Part shown: piece by piece, positions 3,431-16,955 of the stretch
Layout of the letters: every line of letters starts with the position of its first letter
How positions within the stretch are numbered: position 1 is the first letter of the stretch
Source: Candidatus Saccharimonadota bacterium
GTDB taxonomy: Bacteria > Patescibacteriota > Saccharimonadia > Saccharimonadales > Saccharimonadaceae
DNA length: 61,331 bases
Assembly: GCA_017557865.1 (NCBI GenBank)
Contig: JAFYXW010000010.1
Coordinates: forward strand, 1 to 61,331
Direction: 5' to 3'
Program-made: the position numbers and the translations under genes
The notes under the pieces: generated by a model
The model's database searches: none
What the model saw: only the letters and a program-made list of their open reading frames with translations
What the model was told of the DNA's origin: nothing

Positions 3431-5038
3431 ATGGAAAGTTTATTTAAGCTTGTAGTGCAGGACACTGACGTAGTGGTGCCAGACACGGGTATGTACACTC
3501 GTGGTATCGCTGATGGTGGCGCTATCAACCTAGGTGGGATCATATTTGCTGGTTTCTGCCTTCTTTTGATGGTGAGTGTGGTTGTACTAAGAATAATACA
3601 ACGTAAAAAGGCGACGAAAAAAGCTTGTACTGGTTTACTAGCTACTGTGGTTGCCGGGGCAGCGATAAGTGCACTTCTTATTAGCAATACAAGTGCCGTA
3701 ATGAAAAGTTTGGATATTACGGTGTCGGACACAATTACCGCTACGATTGATCGTAGTAAGGGCGAGAGTTCTGTTGTAGTGCCAGTAGACATTACTTTGA
3801 ACGAAGCGTCGGCCGATGGCTACGACCTATATATATATGGTGGGGCTCTCACGGATGGTACTAATACTATTGAACAAGTGTCGAGCGACGGTGTAGAAAT
3901 AACAAGCGGAACCTGGGGGATTATTGCTAATAATAGCGAAACGGCTCCAGAAATTGATGCTACAGAGTGGGGACAAACCGGTACGGCTAGCGCGCCAAAA
4001 AAGGTTTATACGGTTGATACTGCAGCGGCGGCTGGCTCGACTTTCCGTGTTTATTATGGCGTGTCTGTCGATGAAGACACTCCTGCCGGTGTATATACTA
4101 CGACAATTGGCTTCGCGATGAAACACGAAGTTGCTTTGACTCTGGAAGAATCATATGAATTTTCTGAAAAAGAAAAAGTACCTGTAGGCCCAGATGAATA
4201 TTACACCATACAGGATATGGACTCGACCATCTGCGAAAATACCGACGTAATCCCAAGCGAAATGCAAGTGGTTGATGTTCGCGATAATAGAATTTACACT
4301 ATTGGTAAGCTTGCCGATGGCCACTGCTGGTTGCTAGACAACCTTGCTCTAGACCCAACCGACGCTACCGTGGCTGCAGATATGAATTCAACAAATACGA
4401 ACGCGACCGACGAAGCGATTAATAACTTTATCAACGGTAGTGCAACTGCTCTGCATGATGGTTGGTCTACTTCGCCAGTTGGGCGTACCTACATGGCTGG
4501 TGGTGTTGACTATATGACTCCACGTCTCTTTGACCAGAGCAAAGATATAACTAGCGCAGATTTGTCTGACCCAGATGAGCCATTGGCTGAAGCAGCTAAC
4601 TGGAAGTTCGGTATCTACTATAATTACTGCGCGGTTTCTGCCGGTACATATTGTTACACTGATGGTGATAGTAGCATCGCATACGATAAGCCTGACACTG
4701 CATTTGATATAGACTATGATATCTGTCCAGCTGGCTGGAGATTGCCTTCTGGTGGTAATGGTGGTGAATACGAAATCCTATATAATACTTACTATGATGC
4801 TAACGAATCGAACCCAAGCCATCCGTTTAGGAAGGCTTTGCATCTACCTATCTCTGGGTATGTCTCGTATATCGGGCCAGTAAGCCAAGGCAGCTATGTT
4901 TCGTACTGGACCGCAACGAACCCAGGAAACGATGGCTATTATATGCAAATCCTTTATCAAAACGCTTTCTATGCAGGTAGCCCAACAAGCTCCAATAGCC
5001 GCTACTATGGCTATGGTGTTCGCTGTATCGCAAAGTAA
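3431..5038 (+). CDS. membrane-anchored FISUMP-domain surface protein
   Basis: This 535-residue protein has two hydrophobic segments near the N-terminus (about 33-55 and 66-86) separated by a basic RKKATKK turn. A Thr/Ser/Asp-rich beta region of about 160 residues follows, then a C-terminal FISUMP domain (Fib_succ_major type, about 285-535). The FISUMP hallmarks are visible: GKLADGHCWLLDNLAL, DICPAGWRLPSG, SYWTATNPG and the final GYGVRCIAK. These domains occur in secreted and surface proteins, and the function here is probably contact with a host or matrix, which is inference. The gene ends at a bidirectional terminator facing nusA. A second, larger relative lies at 56426-59311. Confidence 0.82.
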   Translation: MESLFKLVVQDTDVVVPDTGMYTRGIADGGAINLGGIIFAGFCLLLMVSVVVLRIIQRKKATKKACTGLLATVVAGAAISALLISNTSAVMKSLDITVSDTITATIDRSKGESSVVVPVDITLNEASADGYDLYIYGGALTDGTNTIEQVSSDGVEITSGTWGIIANNSETAPEIDATEWGQTGTASAPKKVYTVDTAAAAGSTFRVYYGVSVDEDTPAGVYTTTIGFAMKHEVALTLEESYEFSEKEKVPVGPDEYYTIQDMDSTICENTDVIPSEMQVVDVRDNRIYTIGKLADGHCWLLDNLALDPTDATVAADMNSTNTNATDEAINNFINGSATALHDGWSTSPVGRTYMAGGVDYMTPRLFDQSKDITSADLSDPDEPLAEAANWKFGIYYNYCAVSAGTYCYTDGDSSIAYDKPDTAFDIDYDICPAGWRLPSGGNGGEYEILYNTYYDANESNPSHPFRKALHLPISGYVSYIGPVSQGSYVSYWTATNPGNDGYYMQILYQNAFYAGSPTSSNSRYYGYGVRCIAK

Positions 5039-9621: not shown

Positions 9622-9695
9622 TAAACGGCGGTTGCAGTTTTTTTGCAGTGTGTTAATTTTTCTTCAGGTCTTGGGAGCTTTTTAATCTTTCGGTA

Positions 9696-9786
9696 ACAGA
9701 TTCTGGTAGGTGGCGCTGTGGGCGCTTGGCTCTCAACGGGAATCTGTCGTGATGTGCTAGATAAATCGGGTTTTAGATCTCCCGTT
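9696..9786 (+). ncRNA. candidate structured leader RNA with two mutually exclusive stems
   Basis: Pairing A: ACAGATTC (9696-9703) with GAATCTGT (9740-9747), perfect 8 bp, enclosing a small GCGC hairpin (9713-9725). Pairing B: AACGGGAATCT (9735-9745) with AGAT-C-TCCCGTT (9775-9786), 11 bp with a one-base bulge. Both use positions 9740-9745, so only one can form at a time, the layout expected for a riboswitch or attenuator. It lies upstream of a strongly ribosome-bound 27-codon ORF. I recognise no known Rfam class. A free-standing small RNA is the alternative. Confidence 0.45.
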
Positions 9787-9822
9787 AGTAATTTGTGAAA
9801 ACAAAAAACGAAAGGAGTCACG

Positions 9823-9906
9823 ATGCTAGAAATTGAACTAACCTTCAAGCTAATTCGTAAACCTAAAGATAAAAAAATTACTGTTCAAGCTCAGCTCGAA
9901 CAGTAA
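9823..9906 (+). CDS. 27-residue small protein behind the structured leader
   Basis: ATG at 9823 with AAAGGAG 6 nt upstream, ending with TAA at 9904-9906. The peptide is MLEIELTFKLIRKPKDKK followed by ITVQAQLEQ: basic in the middle, amphipathic at both ends, no membrane segment. The very good Shine-Dalgarno site and the structured leader argue for real translation, perhaps as a regulatory leader peptide or a conserved microprotein. I know of no family for it. The end of the frame overlaps a short hairpin (CTGTTC / GAACAG, 9881-9903). Confidence 0.5.
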   Translation: MLEIELTFKLIRKPKDKKITVQAQLEQ

Positions 9907-9917
9907 AGCTACTCAAG

Positions 9918-9942
9918 ATAGCAAGTTTCTAGCGCTTGCTAT
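9918..9942 (+). terminator. hairpin behind the small ORF, possible terminator
   Basis: Perfect 8-bp stem ATAGCAAG / CTTGCTAT with a 9-nt loop, 11 nt after the small ORF stop. The downstream sequence is AT-rich but has no clean T-run, so the termination role is uncertain. Confidence 0.4.
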
Positions 9943-10001
9943 TAAGATAATAGTATATTTATTGTGGTTATTTGTCAATGTCTTTAATCCCGTAATTATG
10001 A

Positions 10002-10015: not shown

Positions 10016-10100
10016 GGCCGGATGGCGGAATTGGTATACGCGTTCGACTTAAAATCGAATGGGGAAACTCGTACGGGTTCAAGTCCCGTTCCGGCTACCA
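10016..10100 (+). tRNA. tRNA-Leu (anticodon TAA)
   Basis: Class II tRNA with a 7-bp acceptor (GGCCGGA / TCCGGCT), anticodon loop CTTAAAA inside the stem TTCGA/TCGAA, a long variable arm (GGGGAAACTC) and a T arm ACGGG-TTCAAGT-CCCGT. The terminal A-CCA is encoded. An open frame running through it is spurious. Confidence 0.95.
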
Positions 10101-10180
10101 CGAAAAGTTTAGCAGCTCCAGTTACCTAAAATTAACTGGGGGATTTGGACCTTCGGTGCAAGTCCCGTTCCGGCTACCAC
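10080..10180 (+). repeat. 22-bp direct duplication of the tRNA-Leu 3' end
   Basis: Positions 10080-10101 (tRNA T-loop to CCA plus C) are repeated exactly at 10159-10180. Between the copies lie 57 nt containing a perfect 7-bp hairpin (CCAGTTA / TAACTGG, 10118-10139). The second copy lacks the 5' half of the T-stem and cannot be a functional tRNA. This is what an integration into the tRNA 3' end leaves behind, with the element since almost deleted, or it is a partial tRNA duplication. Confidence 0.8.
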
Positions 10181-13998: not shown

Positions 13999-14015
13999 TC
14001 CTAGCTGGTTTTTAG
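13984..14015. terminator. bidirectional terminator overlapping two stop codons
   Basis: AAAAAAA, CCAGCTA, loop ATCC, TAGCTGG, TTTTT. The hairpin contains the TAA of the plus-strand operon (13996-13998) and the TAG of the minus-strand array (14001-14003), so it serves both. Confidence 0.9.
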
Positions 14016-14477
14016 TTGTTCGACAAAGTCTTCTTTTTCGTCATACCAATCATAGAAGCTTAGTCTTTCAATGTACTCTTTTGTTTTCCGCAAAGACTCA
14101 TTAGCATCGTCAGTCTCGTGATAAAAGAACGCAAATGCAAGCATAAATCTGTCGGTGAGTTTTAGGGTATCTTCACAATTCGCGGAATTAGAGGCGTTTA
14201 TATATATCAATGTGTGGCCTTCTTCCGTTTTTTCTCTTTCGTAGTCTTTTAGACTTGTTAGTTTAATGGTGCACAAATAATCTTTTGTGTTTTTGGTTAT
14301 GGCACCACACTCTAAATTCTTTGTGAGAACGAAAGGGCAAAAATATGTGAAAGATTCATCGCTTTTGATATTGCCTCGTCTTGCAATTACTTTTCTTAGG
14401 GAATTTAAATCTACTTCTCCGCGAGATGCGTGACTGATGAGGTTGTTTGCGTATTTTATGAGTTCATCATAACGCAA
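14001..14477 (-). CDS. array gene 5: unknown protein with shared FAFFY C-terminal module
   Basis: 158 residues with a TTG start at 14477. A strong AGGAGGTGG site lies 6 nt before this TTG, and the protein then begins RYDELIKYANNLISHAS, which matches YYDELKEYTDNLIGNSI inside array gene 1 (16344-16955). It therefore lacks the first 50 or so residues of its longer relatives. The C-terminus has the family signature LAFAFFYHETDDANESLRKTKEY and ends in FVEQLKTS. No catalytic motif or membrane segment is visible. It is the last gene of the second transcription unit and ends in the bidirectional terminator. Confidence 0.7.
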   Translation of the reverse strand: MRYDELIKYANNLISHASRGEVDLNSLRKVIARRGNIKSDESFTYFCPFVLTKNLECGAITKNTKDYLCTIKLTSLKDYEREKTEEGHTLIYINASNSANCEDTLKLTDRFMLAFAFFYHETDDANESLRKTKEYIERLSFYDWYDEKEDFVEQLKTS

Positions 14478-14496
14478 TGAAACCACCTCCTAGTTT

Positions 14497-15177
14497 TTAA
14501 GTAATCCAAATTAATTGTTTAAGTAACAATAAGCCAGATAACTTTAATTCGTCTTGTAGGTAAAGTTTTACTAAAGGCTCATGGGTAGTTAAAATTTTGT
14601 TTTCGAAAAATTTCTTAGTTTCTATTGCCGAAGTATATACGTCTTTGTTGTCGTGATAAAAGAACGCGAATATCAACATAATTTCGGGTAGACAATCTGT
14701 TATAACTAAACCATCATCAGGATCATAATCAACAAACATATTGTTGATGTTAATTAAGATTTTCCCGTGGGATATTATGCTTTCGCCACGATAGATATTA
14801 AAATCATCTGGCGATTTACTTATCGTATAAATCGAATCCCACTTGTTGATATAGCTATCTCTAAACTTCGTTAGATTAAATGCACGAGAATAATAACATG
14901 TCCCGTTATCATCCTTTTGTTTTACAATAATATTTTCTAAAACAAATTTCTTTTCTTTGCTACCTAAGATTTCATCAAACACTTCTGTTGAGTATTTTTG
15001 AAGTTCTGTGTAAAAATCTTTTGCTAAAGCATTTCTTTTTTCAATGAGTTCATTCCTGGAAAAAAGATATTTGTCGTAAACGCATTGATCGCCATTTGCT
15101 TTTCTCATCATAGATGCGGCATGGCTGATTTTTCGGTTCAATGACTCTAGCTCGGTTCCGTATTCTTCGTTGGTCAA
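14497..15177 (-). CDS. array gene 4: unknown protein with shared FAFFY C-terminal module
   Basis: 226 residues. The start is most likely TTG at 15177, 6 nt behind AAAGGGGTG, because the resulting N-terminus (TNEEYGTELESLNRKI) aligns with TDAELNNEIKKLNSKI of array gene 1, which also starts with TTG. A GTG at 15186 would overlap the ribosome-binding site. The N-terminal 75 residues are helical and charged. The C-terminal module reads IMLIFAFFYHDNKDVYTSA. Function unknown. It is the first gene of the second transcription unit, with its own TTGACT/TATAAT promoter. Confidence 0.7.
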   Translation of the reverse strand: MTNEEYGTELESLNRKISHAASMMRKANGDQCVYDKYLFSRNELIEKRNALAKDFYTELQKYSTEVFDEILGSKEKKFVLENIIVKQKDDNGTCYYSRAFNLTKFRDSYINKWDSIYTISKSPDDFNIYRGESIISHGKILININNMFVDYDPDDGLVITDCLPEIMLIFAFFYHDNKDVYTSAIETKKFFENKILTTHEPLVKLYLQDELKLSGLLLLKQLIWIT

Positions 15178-15241
15178 TGTAATCACCCCTTTCGTAGTGA
15201 ATAAAAAATAAATTGTTAATTTTCGTCCTAAAACTATCTAT

Positions 15242-15270
15242 ATTATAGCATAAATCTGATGAATAGTCAA
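15242..15270 (-). promoter_or_regulatory. promoter of array unit 2
   Basis: On the minus strand TTGACT (15270-15265), 17-nt spacer, TATAAT (15247-15242). The elements, spacer length and the following bases (ATA, then TAGTTTTAGG) closely match the promoter of unit 1 at 17007-17035, suggesting duplication of the promoter with the genes. Confidence 0.85.
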
Positions 15271-15283
15271 AAAAATAGGGAAG

Positions 15284-15316
15284 TAAAAAACCAGCTTTTA
15301 AAAGCTGGTTTTTAAA
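15284..15316 (-). terminator. terminator of array unit 1
   Basis: Palindrome CCAGCTTTTAAAAGCTGG (15291-15308) with T-runs on either side. It shares the CCAGCT...AGCTGG stem with the terminator of unit 2. Confidence 0.88.
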
Positions 15317-15323
15317 TTTAGTT

Positions 15324-15758
15324 TTAGGTTAATAATAAACGTTCTAAGAAGCTAACGCGACCTTTTTCCCATTCTTCGATTGCGGCTCCTTCGTAGAATT
15401 TTAATGTTTTTTCATAACATTTTTCAAAATTCTTGTTTTTGTAATAGTAGAATGCAAAAGTTGTGATGATTTCGTCTTGGGGGCCCCATGAGTACCATCC
15501 GCTATCTTCGTCTCCATAAATCTTGTAGAACTCATACTTTTTGAACGGCTTTAAATCGATCTTTTTAATTAATTCTTTGGGAATTTTCTTTTTGTACGCT
15601 CCTAGCTCCTTACTGAATTTATTAAGAAGCTCCAATCGGTCCTCCATGTGACCATACCAATTACCACACATCCAGATTCGCGTGCCGTATACTTCCTCGC
15701 AGCGATCTATCAAACCTCGTATGTGTTCCATTTTTTCGCGATAATCCTTAATATTCAT
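15324..15758 (-). CDS. array gene 3: short unknown protein with shared C-terminal module
   Basis: 144 residues. The longer in-frame start at 15836 would overlap the upstream gene by 73 nt. The ATG at 15758 has GAGGTGAG 3 nt before it and lies 4 nt after the upstream stop, so I choose it. The N-terminal half is helical and charged with a Trp/Cys patch (TRIWMCGNWYGHMED). The C-terminal 45 residues carry the family module TTFAFYYYKNKNFEKCYEKT and EEWEKGRVSFLERLL. It is the most divergent member of the array. Function unknown. It ends at a strong terminator. Confidence 0.7.
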   Translation of the reverse strand: MNIKDYREKMEHIRGLIDRCEEVYGTRIWMCGNWYGHMEDRLELLNKFSKELGAYKKKIPKELIKKIDLKPFKKYEFYKIYGDEDSGWYSWGPQDEIITTFAFYYYKNKNFEKCYEKTLKFYEGAAIEEWEKGRVSFLERLLLT

Positions 15759-15762
15759 TTTC

Positions 15763-16329
15763 TCACCTCGCCTTCCTTTGCGACAGTTCATACAACTGCT
15801 GGTAAATATTGATGTCTTCTCTAAAATCTTTTTCAAAGAAATCTTTCATGCTGGCAATTGCTTTGTCCACGTTTTTGCTTTGTCGATAAAAATTGGCAAA
15901 TACAACCGTGATTTTTTCAACGTAATAAGTGTCGTCTTTTTTTAGATCACCGTTTGGGCTGATAATGATGGGTTTGCCCTTAACATGACGTTTTAATTCG
16001 CGATTTGGCAATGCCCTTCCATAAAATATATACGGGCTGTTGTCTGGCTGAGCATGGATTTCGAAACTAATGGAGAATACTTCGGATGCAAAGTTGAAAG
16101 CATGGTGATACTCGTGCGTTCCTAACTGTTTGCCGTTGGAAATTTGAAGACTCGACACTATGTGAATATAGACATTACGAAGTTTTTCCGTGTAACCAGG
16201 TATTTGGTTGTACTTAAATTTTCGTATTAAGTCTTCGGCGTACGTGTACAAACTCTTTTTAAACGTTAGTAATACTTCGTCTTGTAATTCGGTTTTTCCT
16301 TTTTTCTCTAGTCTAGGATCAATAAGCAT
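15763..16329 (-). CDS. array gene 2: unknown protein with shared C-terminal module
   Basis: 188 residues from the ATG at 16329. A longer frame beginning at 16347 (MKEVAT) is actually the ribosome-binding site itself: AAGGAGG lies 8 nt before the ATG at 16329. The central part shows the shared YHHAFNFASEVFSISFEIHA, comparable to YYHAFIFDTKN of gene 1. The C-terminal module is VVFANFYRQSKNVDKAIASM, so FAFFY is changed to FANFY. It ends with Gln/Arg-rich residues and no EEW...FVE tail. Function unknown. Confidence 0.7.
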   Translation of the reverse strand: MLIDPRLEKKGKTELQDEVLLTFKKSLYTYAEDLIRKFKYNQIPGYTEKLRNVYIHIVSSLQISNGKQLGTHEYHHAFNFASEVFSISFEIHAQPDNSPYIFYGRALPNRELKRHVKGKPIIISPNGDLKKDDTYYVEKITVVFANFYRQSKNVDKAIASMKDFFEKDFREDINIYQQLYELSQRKAR

Positions 16330-16343
16330 TGTGGCCACCTCCT

Positions 16344-16955
16344 TCATGTGTCTAATAAAAATTCTACAAATTTACGTTTCCGGTAAAACCATTCTTCGAT
16401 TTTTATTCTCTCGAAGATTTTCTTTGTCTTTTCCAAAGACTCTTCAACATTGTTGTTCTGTCGATAGAAAAATGCAAAAGTAAGCATTATTTTGTCTGGA
16501 GCGGTTAAAAAATCGTATCCAGAACCGACAGTATTACAATTTGCCGAAGTGGGAACTAGGACAGTTATTAAGATGTCGCCAAGATTTTCGCGCTCTTTCT
16601 CGAACTTCATTGATGCTGGCCAACTAGCATTAAGCACGTGAGACCAGGTGTTTTTGGTGTCGAAAATGAAAGCATGATAATACGAATAATAATTTAGTTC
16701 TTCATTTCTTTGTCGAACAAGAACTCTTTTTAGCAGACTTAAATCTGTTCTTCCGTCAATAGAATTGCCTATTAAATTATCCGTATATTCTTTTAATTCA
16801 TCATAATAATTGTCGAGCAGTTCCGACTTTTTGGTGCTAAGTGTTTGTAGCAGACGAGTGTATTCATCGTTAAACGTCTGGTTTGCTCTTTCTTTATTAT
16901 GTTCAATTTTGCTATTAAGTTTTTTTATCTCATTATTTAATTCGGCGTCTGTCAA
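16344..16955 (-). CDS. array gene 1: unknown protein with shared FAFFY C-terminal module
   Basis: 203 residues with a TTG start at 16955 behind AAAGGGGTG (7-nt spacing). The order is a charged, probably coiled helix (1-55), a conserved DELKEYTDNLI segment (about 52-62), LSLLKRVLVRQRN and YYHAFIF in the middle, and the C-terminal module MLTFAFFYRQNNNVEESLEK plus EEW and FVEFLLDT (about 157-203). No signal peptide, membrane segment or known catalytic motif is visible. It heads a three-gene unit (16955 to 15324) with a near-consensus promoter. Gene 2 follows closely. Confidence 0.72.
   Translation of the reverse strand: MTDAELNNEIKKLNSKIEHNKERANQTFNDEYTRLLQTLSTKKSELLDNYYDELKEYTDNLIGNSIDGRTDLSLLKRVLVRQRNEELNYYSYYHAFIFDTKNTWSHVLNASWPASMKFEKERENLGDILITVLVPTSANCNTVGSGYDFLTAPDKIMLTFAFFYRQNNNVEESLEKTKKIFERIKIEEWFYRKRKFVEFLLDT

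Follow-up and report, generated by a model that had tools for sequence, protein, structure and literature searches.

A dispersed RNA-microprotein element with a predicted convergent antisense RNA in one genus of Saccharibacteria

The locus and its relatives

The element lies at 9622-9942 of the window (the whole 61,331-nucleotide stretch of DNA that was analysed), and the genome that carries it is 694 kb. It is located between a gene for a 144-residue membrane-like protein, itself downstream of RNase J and a thioredoxin-reductase-like gene, and tRNA-Leu. The last ~22 bases of this tRNA (10080-10100) are repeated at 10158-10179, ~80 bases downstream, and resemble an attachment-site duplication or a tRNA remnant. 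Elsewhere in the window, four ORFs (161, 229, 170 and 194 aa) stand in a row on the minus strand at 14001-16347; with their common FAFFYH/FYxxxKN...KxFxE-like motif they are, by sequence, a tandem array of diverged paralogues.

The original prediction was a riboswitch-like RNA with two exclusive helices ahead of a tiny ORF and a hairpin, in an otherwise empty stretch. The Shine-Dalgarno sequence AAAGGAG (SD, 9811-9817), the 27-codon ORF (9823-9906) and the hairpin at 9918-9942 are all present. The stretch is not empty, as its minus strand holds a predicted antisense gene.

Sequence comparison identifies 9622-9942 as one copy of an undescribed, multi-copy and dispersed family. A DNA search and a protein search each recovered the element elsewhere in the genus, and a profile of six peptides (A1) found ~60 significant copies there; the homologous loci have the microprotein ORF alongside in intact copies. 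Covariance models for the UTR (R1 and R2) and the 3' unit (R3) then widened the A1 search. R3 matched 56 of 170 genomes of the genus, including 38 of the 108 good-quality ones, with up to six copies per genome. All named relatives of the locus come from metagenome assemblies of Candidatus Saccharibacteria, and ruminant gut is the source of many.

In all searches made, the family was confined to this one genus. Order-wide, neither the peptide profile (392 genomes, 156 genera) nor R1 (197 genomes) gave a credible match outside it. A single match with an E value of 0.005, inside a long frame in another genus, was discounted, and several weak R2 matches were false, being at an rsmH-adjacent locus or in coding regions. 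A viral, phage or plasmid origin was rejected because no relatives were found in viral contigs, phages or plasmids. Literature searches among open-licence papers yielded no title or abstract on such an element in Saccharibacteria.

The copies fall into two subfamilies, A and B, with a common plan, and the copy at 9622-9942 belongs to B. Strongly diverged relatives (L213, L214, L217, L219 and L206/L207) encode other microproteins behind a recognisable but different UTR, and thus the family is wider than the models used.

The sense mRNA and its microprotein

The structured sense mRNA (9664-9942, plus strand) has a predicted 5' end and reaches at least to the second hairpin. Upstream, a candidate promoter with a weak match, TTGCAG-16-TAATTT with a TG extension (9632-9659, plus strand), is at the position of a conserved family element, GGGGTTGA...TRTGnTA. 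Conservation runs from P1 to P8 in the ~50 complete copies compared. RNAalifold on mixed subfamily alignments lost true helices by misalignment, and therefore we used pair counts on subfamily alignments and swap tests, in which the arm of one copy is joined with the partner arm from another. These statistics take kinship into account only through the subfamily split, while copies within a genome are related. Two negative controls gave no signal: the P1 5' arm with the segment before the G-tract (z -0.2), a pairing that is attractive by eye and was rejected for its lack of covariation, and the P2 5' arm with the SD (z 0.14).

P1 closes the mRNA from 5' to 3'. The RNA 5' end (GGGUUGGAG-like; arm at 9669-9679) pairs with the segment directly after the stop codon (CUNCAACC-like; arm at 9907-9918), with a swap z of -6.8. 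P2 joins 9696-9703 to 9740-9747 in a perfect helix of 8 nt (z -6.3), and its arms are UAGAUUCCCC/GGGGGGAUUUA in subfamily A and CAGAUUC/GAAUCUG in subfamily B. Inside P2 is the variable hairpin P3 (9712-9726), which is short in this copy and longer and covarying in subfamily A. P4 (9751-9767; stem swap 0/2000) is a short hairpin with a CUAG loop. P5 is formed by the 5' part of the P2 3' strand and a downstream C-rich segment: 9735-9741 pairs with 9780-9786 over 7 nt, and continuation to 9745/9775 gives 11 bp with one bulge. Then follow the SD, the ORF, the 13-pair hairpin P7 at the ORF end (9878-9906), and P8 (9918-9942), a post-stop hairpin that again has a CUAG loop.

The loops of P4 (9756-9761, GCUAGA) and P8 (9928-9933, UCUAGC) are complementary, and this contact gave the strongest swap result (z -8.5). 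All 6 of 6 pairs are kept in 48 of 49 copies through ten sequence combinations, including UCUAGG/CCUAGA, GCUAGA/UCUAGC, CCUAGA/UCUAGG and UCCAGA/UCUGGA. The downstream hairpin is an integral partner of the UTR and more than a terminator. In addition, the start codon region of the MLE-type ORF (9825-9832, GCTAGAAA) is a perfect complement of the P8 loop strand (TTTCTAGC, 9926-9933), which would possibly give the 3' hairpin another route to initiation.

Swap tests within each subfamily again support P1, P2 and the loop contact. P5, with z -5.4 overall, is not supported there (z -0.6). The comparative support for the two helices of the original prediction is strong for P2 and weaker for P5. P2 and P3 together are 98.4% paired and have 28 two-sided changes, where shuffled data give 7.7; P2 in subfamily B is 96.7% paired, and P7 and P8 together have 60 two-sided cells against 17.5. 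In P2/P3, G.U pairs outnumber A.C pairs (57:2 and 17:0), and in 38 of 49 copies the sense strand forms the stronger P1, which together indicate that the plus-strand RNA is the folded strand.

Both helices of the original prediction, now P2 and P5, are thus present, and they are mutually exclusive since both need 9740-9745. Base 9741 (A or G) tends to change in concert with its two partners, 9702 and 9780 (U or C), which fits a strand that serves two helices. Folding energy is not convincing alone for the UTR (z -1.0) and modest for the whole stretch (z -2.2). We accepted the helices as real because of the comparative evidence, that is, the homologous loci, the covariation of P2, and the variation of 9741 with both partners.

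The 3' arm of P5 can also pair with the SD region. This anti-SD pairing gave a swap z of -6.1 over all copies; by subfamily, the swap counts were 7/3000 in B and 164/3000 in A, where it is weak. The result sets four segments in an attenuator-like order: 1, the P2 5' arm (9696-9703); 2, the shared strand (9735-9747); 3, the P5 3' arm or anti-SD (9775-9786); and 4, the SD. The exclusive pairings are 1:2 (P2), 2:3 (P5) and 3:4 (anti-SD with SD). With P2 formed, segment 3 would be free to mask the SD and translation would be off, while formation of P5 would leave the SD open and translation on. The mRNA 3' tail may bias this choice through P1 and the P4-P8 contact. Release of the SD by removal of the 3' end, as in AapA/hok-type mRNAs, was unsupported: mean openness from SD to start was 0.295 for the full RNA and 0.304 after trimming, in a nested folding model that cannot represent pseudoknots.

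Alternative structures around the SD, here with a weaker anti-SD pairing in subfamily A, are also a riboswitch feature, and attenuator-like helices beside an SD would suit a metabolite riboswitch controlling the microprotein. We nevertheless consider this explanation very improbable. The expectation that the RNA belongs to no known class was borne out, as no Rfam family matched at gathering or relaxed thresholds. Moreover, the same RNA precedes different peptide subtypes and never a metabolic gene, and the unit is stand-alone and dispersed. The key UTR loops have the 3' end as their partner rather than a conserved junction of the kind that forms ligand pockets, and the most variable part, P3, is in the middle of the UTR. 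The input of the switch is likely to be its own 3' end and/or the convergent antisense RNA. The riboswitch-like interpretation as a whole is thus partly supported: on comparative grounds, a cis-acting structured RNA with exclusive helices and a genuine microprotein stand, and a ligand riboswitch does not, there being no downstream metabolic gene.

The microprotein of this copy (MLEIELTFKLIRKPKDKKITVQAQLEQ, 9823-9906, plus strand) has relatives of 24-28 residues, with MEIEFYFKFxRKPKTKKVTVVVEDEQ as the main form. Other subtypes on the same or related RNA are MFIEFNFVFRFGSKTKKITIRIEW and MTVEINLLCIIIIPRRKSIPKKKSTR (read from L214). Nearly all intact copies have an SD-like purine run before the start. 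In the family alignment of the peptide (A2), pN/pS is 0.18 over the 14 codons before P7, with synonymous sites saturated, and 0.87 inside P7, where the RNA hairpin and not the amino acids is constrained. These patterns indicate that the microprotein is real, translated and under purifying selection. The peptide is hydrophilic and basic (mean GRAVY -0.60, net charge +2.4), and no 15-residue window exceeds 0.41, so that no membrane-spanning hydrophobic segment was found. Its alternating polar and non-polar pattern suggests a beta-hairpin. In Pfam, the main subtypes had no match and one diverged subtype had a sub-threshold match only; PADLOC gave no match.

A predicted convergent antisense RNA gene

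Downstream of P8, the minus strand carries a predicted promoter, TTGACA-17-TACTAT (9950-9978). In the family-wide test, at least 10 of the 12 consensus bases were found in 57% of 61 copies, compared with 2% in shuffles and in flanks. The promoter is at a fixed place after P8 and is followed in most copies by P8', a linker, P7' and a U-run. The predicted antisense RNA of ~73 nt (9871-9943, minus strand; both ends predicted) would start with P8' as its 5' hairpin, continue through a linker that complements the P1 3' arm, and end at an intrinsic terminator whose stem is P7' and whose U-run (9871-9877) is the A-run of the KK codons on the plus strand. It would thus cover the ORF end, the P1 3' arm and P8, with its terminator inside the ORF end. 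Of the paired Lys codons ahead of P7, the first is always AAA (56 of 56 copies), compared with 67% at other Lys positions, because the antisense U-run forces the codon choice. A candidate antisense gene opposite a small ORF, as in type I toxin-antitoxin loci, is therefore recognisable from its promoter, T-run and terminator hairpin.

The P8 loop has its cis partner in the P4 loop. The antisense RNA therefore not only complements the 3' tail but also resembles the UTR, and it should compete with the UTR for the tail.

Incomplete copies often retain the antisense side. P7-P8 is kept in copies that lack the 5' half (L083, L096, L101, L200) and in copies that lack the middle of the element (L201-L203, L209, L210), and most of these copies also show a clear minus-strand promoter. 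Some copies without the ORF keep the antisense unit, and some ORF-less derivatives still have the sense promoter. Three ORF-less derivatives in one genome (G012) differ from each other in P7 and P8.

The solo antisense units without an ORF, some of them in genomes that yielded no intact copy (G009, G012), would fit a dual RNA regulator, in which the antisense RNA and/or the UTR act on other transcripts in trans, with the peptide serving as an auxiliary product or as a partner that binds RNA. The peptide is basic; the subfamily B core CUCUCAACGG is nearly invariant, which the tested intramolecular helices account for only in part; and AAGTCTCTCAACGG turns up again beside rsmH, in a second intergenic locus that is conserved and RNA-like. 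The shared 10-14-mer may be chance, however, and it is absent from subfamily A, while the two-sided covariation inside the molecule places the main pairing partners in cis. We therefore regard this alternative as improbable.

Two observations concern the same sequences. In all subfamily B copies, here at 9730-9739, CUCUC before AACGGG is nearly invariant, and no tested intramolecular pairing explains it. The rsmH-side locus (L175, L180, L181, L183, L184, L185, L187 and L188, about 200-500; G000:C1:1894-1907) is ~265 bp long, has no Rfam match and lies beside an rsmH-like gene. The locus forms a pairing between its ends (GUUUGAGAACG...CGUUCUCAAAC), and a minus-strand T-run points to a stand-alone RNA. 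Its AAGTCTCTCAACGG matches the subfamily B core CTCTCAACGG, so this locus is possibly a trans partner of the element, or the match arose by chance.

Dispersal, interpretation and significance

Comparison of the copies shows, in the sequence, an mRNA with alternative helices, P1 closure and a P4-P8 contact, together with a convergent antisense promoter and terminator. For its function, our leading reading is a microprotein module under antisense RNA control that operates in the manner of a type I toxin-antitoxin locus, a proposal that we hold at even chances. The antisense RNA would capture the mRNA 3' tail and/or mark the mRNA for cleavage, and would keep the peptide off under normal conditions. 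The peptide would be a growth-affecting or host-interaction effector, set free when the antisense RNA is lost; its toxicity is conjecture. Several findings count against this reading: the ORF-less derivatives with a sense promoter, the hydrophilic peptide, the lack of SD opening on 3' trimming in nested folding, the z of -0.6 for P5 within a subfamily, and the weak anti-SD in subfamily A. We did not file the element as a type I toxin-antitoxin member because the peptide lacks the membrane feature, and because its toxicity is conjectural and transcription of the locus a prediction.

The main rival is a selfish mobile element, which is compatible with the type I-like reading. A small MITE-like element, whose folded RNA ends and peptide serve its own multiplication and whose antisense RNA limits copy number, would account for the dispersal over many unrelated neighbourhoods (208 flanking proteins fall into 135 clusters). 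Among 29 multi-copy loci, 14 have their nearest relative in the same genome, compared with 1.1 expected, although gene conversion and recombination could also explain this similarity. The 9622-9942 site is empty in four genomes (G112, G001, G058, G126), where the same neighbour and tRNA-Leu are only tens of bases apart. There are 5'-truncated copies and, as in MITEs, derivatives with internal deletions, among them the three ORF-less copies in G012 that keep both ends. On the other hand, neither terminal inverted repeats nor target-site duplications were seen, and the similarity between paralogues stops at or beyond the two promoters and not at fixed termini; right ends often coincide with ...GTCAA, a sequence that doubles as the antisense -35, and left ends vary. 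Mobilisation by IS200/IS605 was rejected, as no Y1_Tnp was found in the window's own genome or in other carriers within the 60-genome sample; the positive control was seen in 5 of 14 genomes. Moreover, the peptide and P1/P4-P8 are under selection, for which a function beyond DNA mobility is needed. On balance, a MITE-like element seems rather unlikely as the explanation.

Among the neighbours, the largest cluster is of surface-protein-like genes with a CPxxWxLP motif, found at 3431-5038 here and in the flanks of 14 of 60 element loci. They have a weak, below-cut-off match to the Fibrobacter succinogenes major domain, and their prevalence may reflect the abundance of that gene family.

The type I-like reading invites comparison with known systems. 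In par(pAD1)/Fst-Ldr, convergent promoters produce a small peptide mRNA and a short antisense RNA that meet at a shared hairpin, and the antisense RNA can pair with the 5' UTR through direct repeats. The element has the same predicted arrangement of promoters, RNAs and hairpin. Its UTR loop, however, complements the 3' loop in cis, so that the antisense loop resembles the UTR loop, and its peptide is unrelated. In hok/Sok, the mRNA 5' and 3' ends fold back and UTR structures are metastable. The element shares the 5'-3' foldback, but no mok-like overlapping leader ORF was recognised in it, its antisense RNA is at the 3' end, and its peptide is not membrane-like. A metastable hairpin has been described for hok (PMC6733600).

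By analogy, the nearest known layout is AapA/IsoA of Helicobacter pylori, which likewise has a small ORF, a short mRNA with a 5'-3' long-distance interaction, alternative hairpins around the SD, and an antisense RNA opposite (PMC6733600). AapA3/IsoA3 consists of a 225-nt mRNA with a 5'-3' interaction, a 30 aa peptide and an 80-nt antisense RNA (PMC6733600). The long-distance pairing of AapA/hok-type mRNAs has its counterparts here in P1 and the loop-loop contact. AapA is a membrane peptide, whereas that of the element is hydrophilic and basic, and no sequence relation was found. A further difference is that the predicted antisense RNA of the element covers the ORF end and 3' tail, and no SD release is predicted on 3' trimming. 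With trp-type attenuators and translational riboswitches the element shares the ordered segments 1-4 and their exclusive pairings. Unlike them, it has no evident ligand or leader-peptide sensor, and the 3' end of its own mRNA participates.

More tentatively, and with less confidence than for the type I-like reading, the element may represent a new class of antisense-regulated module of the CPR. Such a module would set a four-segment SD switch, 5'-3' closure and a pseudoknot from the UTR to the 3' loop against a convergent antisense RNA, with a soluble basic micropeptide as its product, and the switch would read whether the 3' tail is free or captured by antisense RNA.

Saccharibacteria are epibionts on other bacteria, and to our knowledge little is known of their post-transcriptional control. 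The element is a recurrent, selected RNA-peptide module in about one third of the genomes of a gut-associated genus, and it is absent from Rfam, Pfam and PADLOC. The covariation yields exact base-pair predictions. Should the peptide be toxic, the type I toxin-antitoxin systems would gain a family whose toxin is, unusually, soluble; if it is not, the element would show antisense RNA setting a translational switch in a new way.
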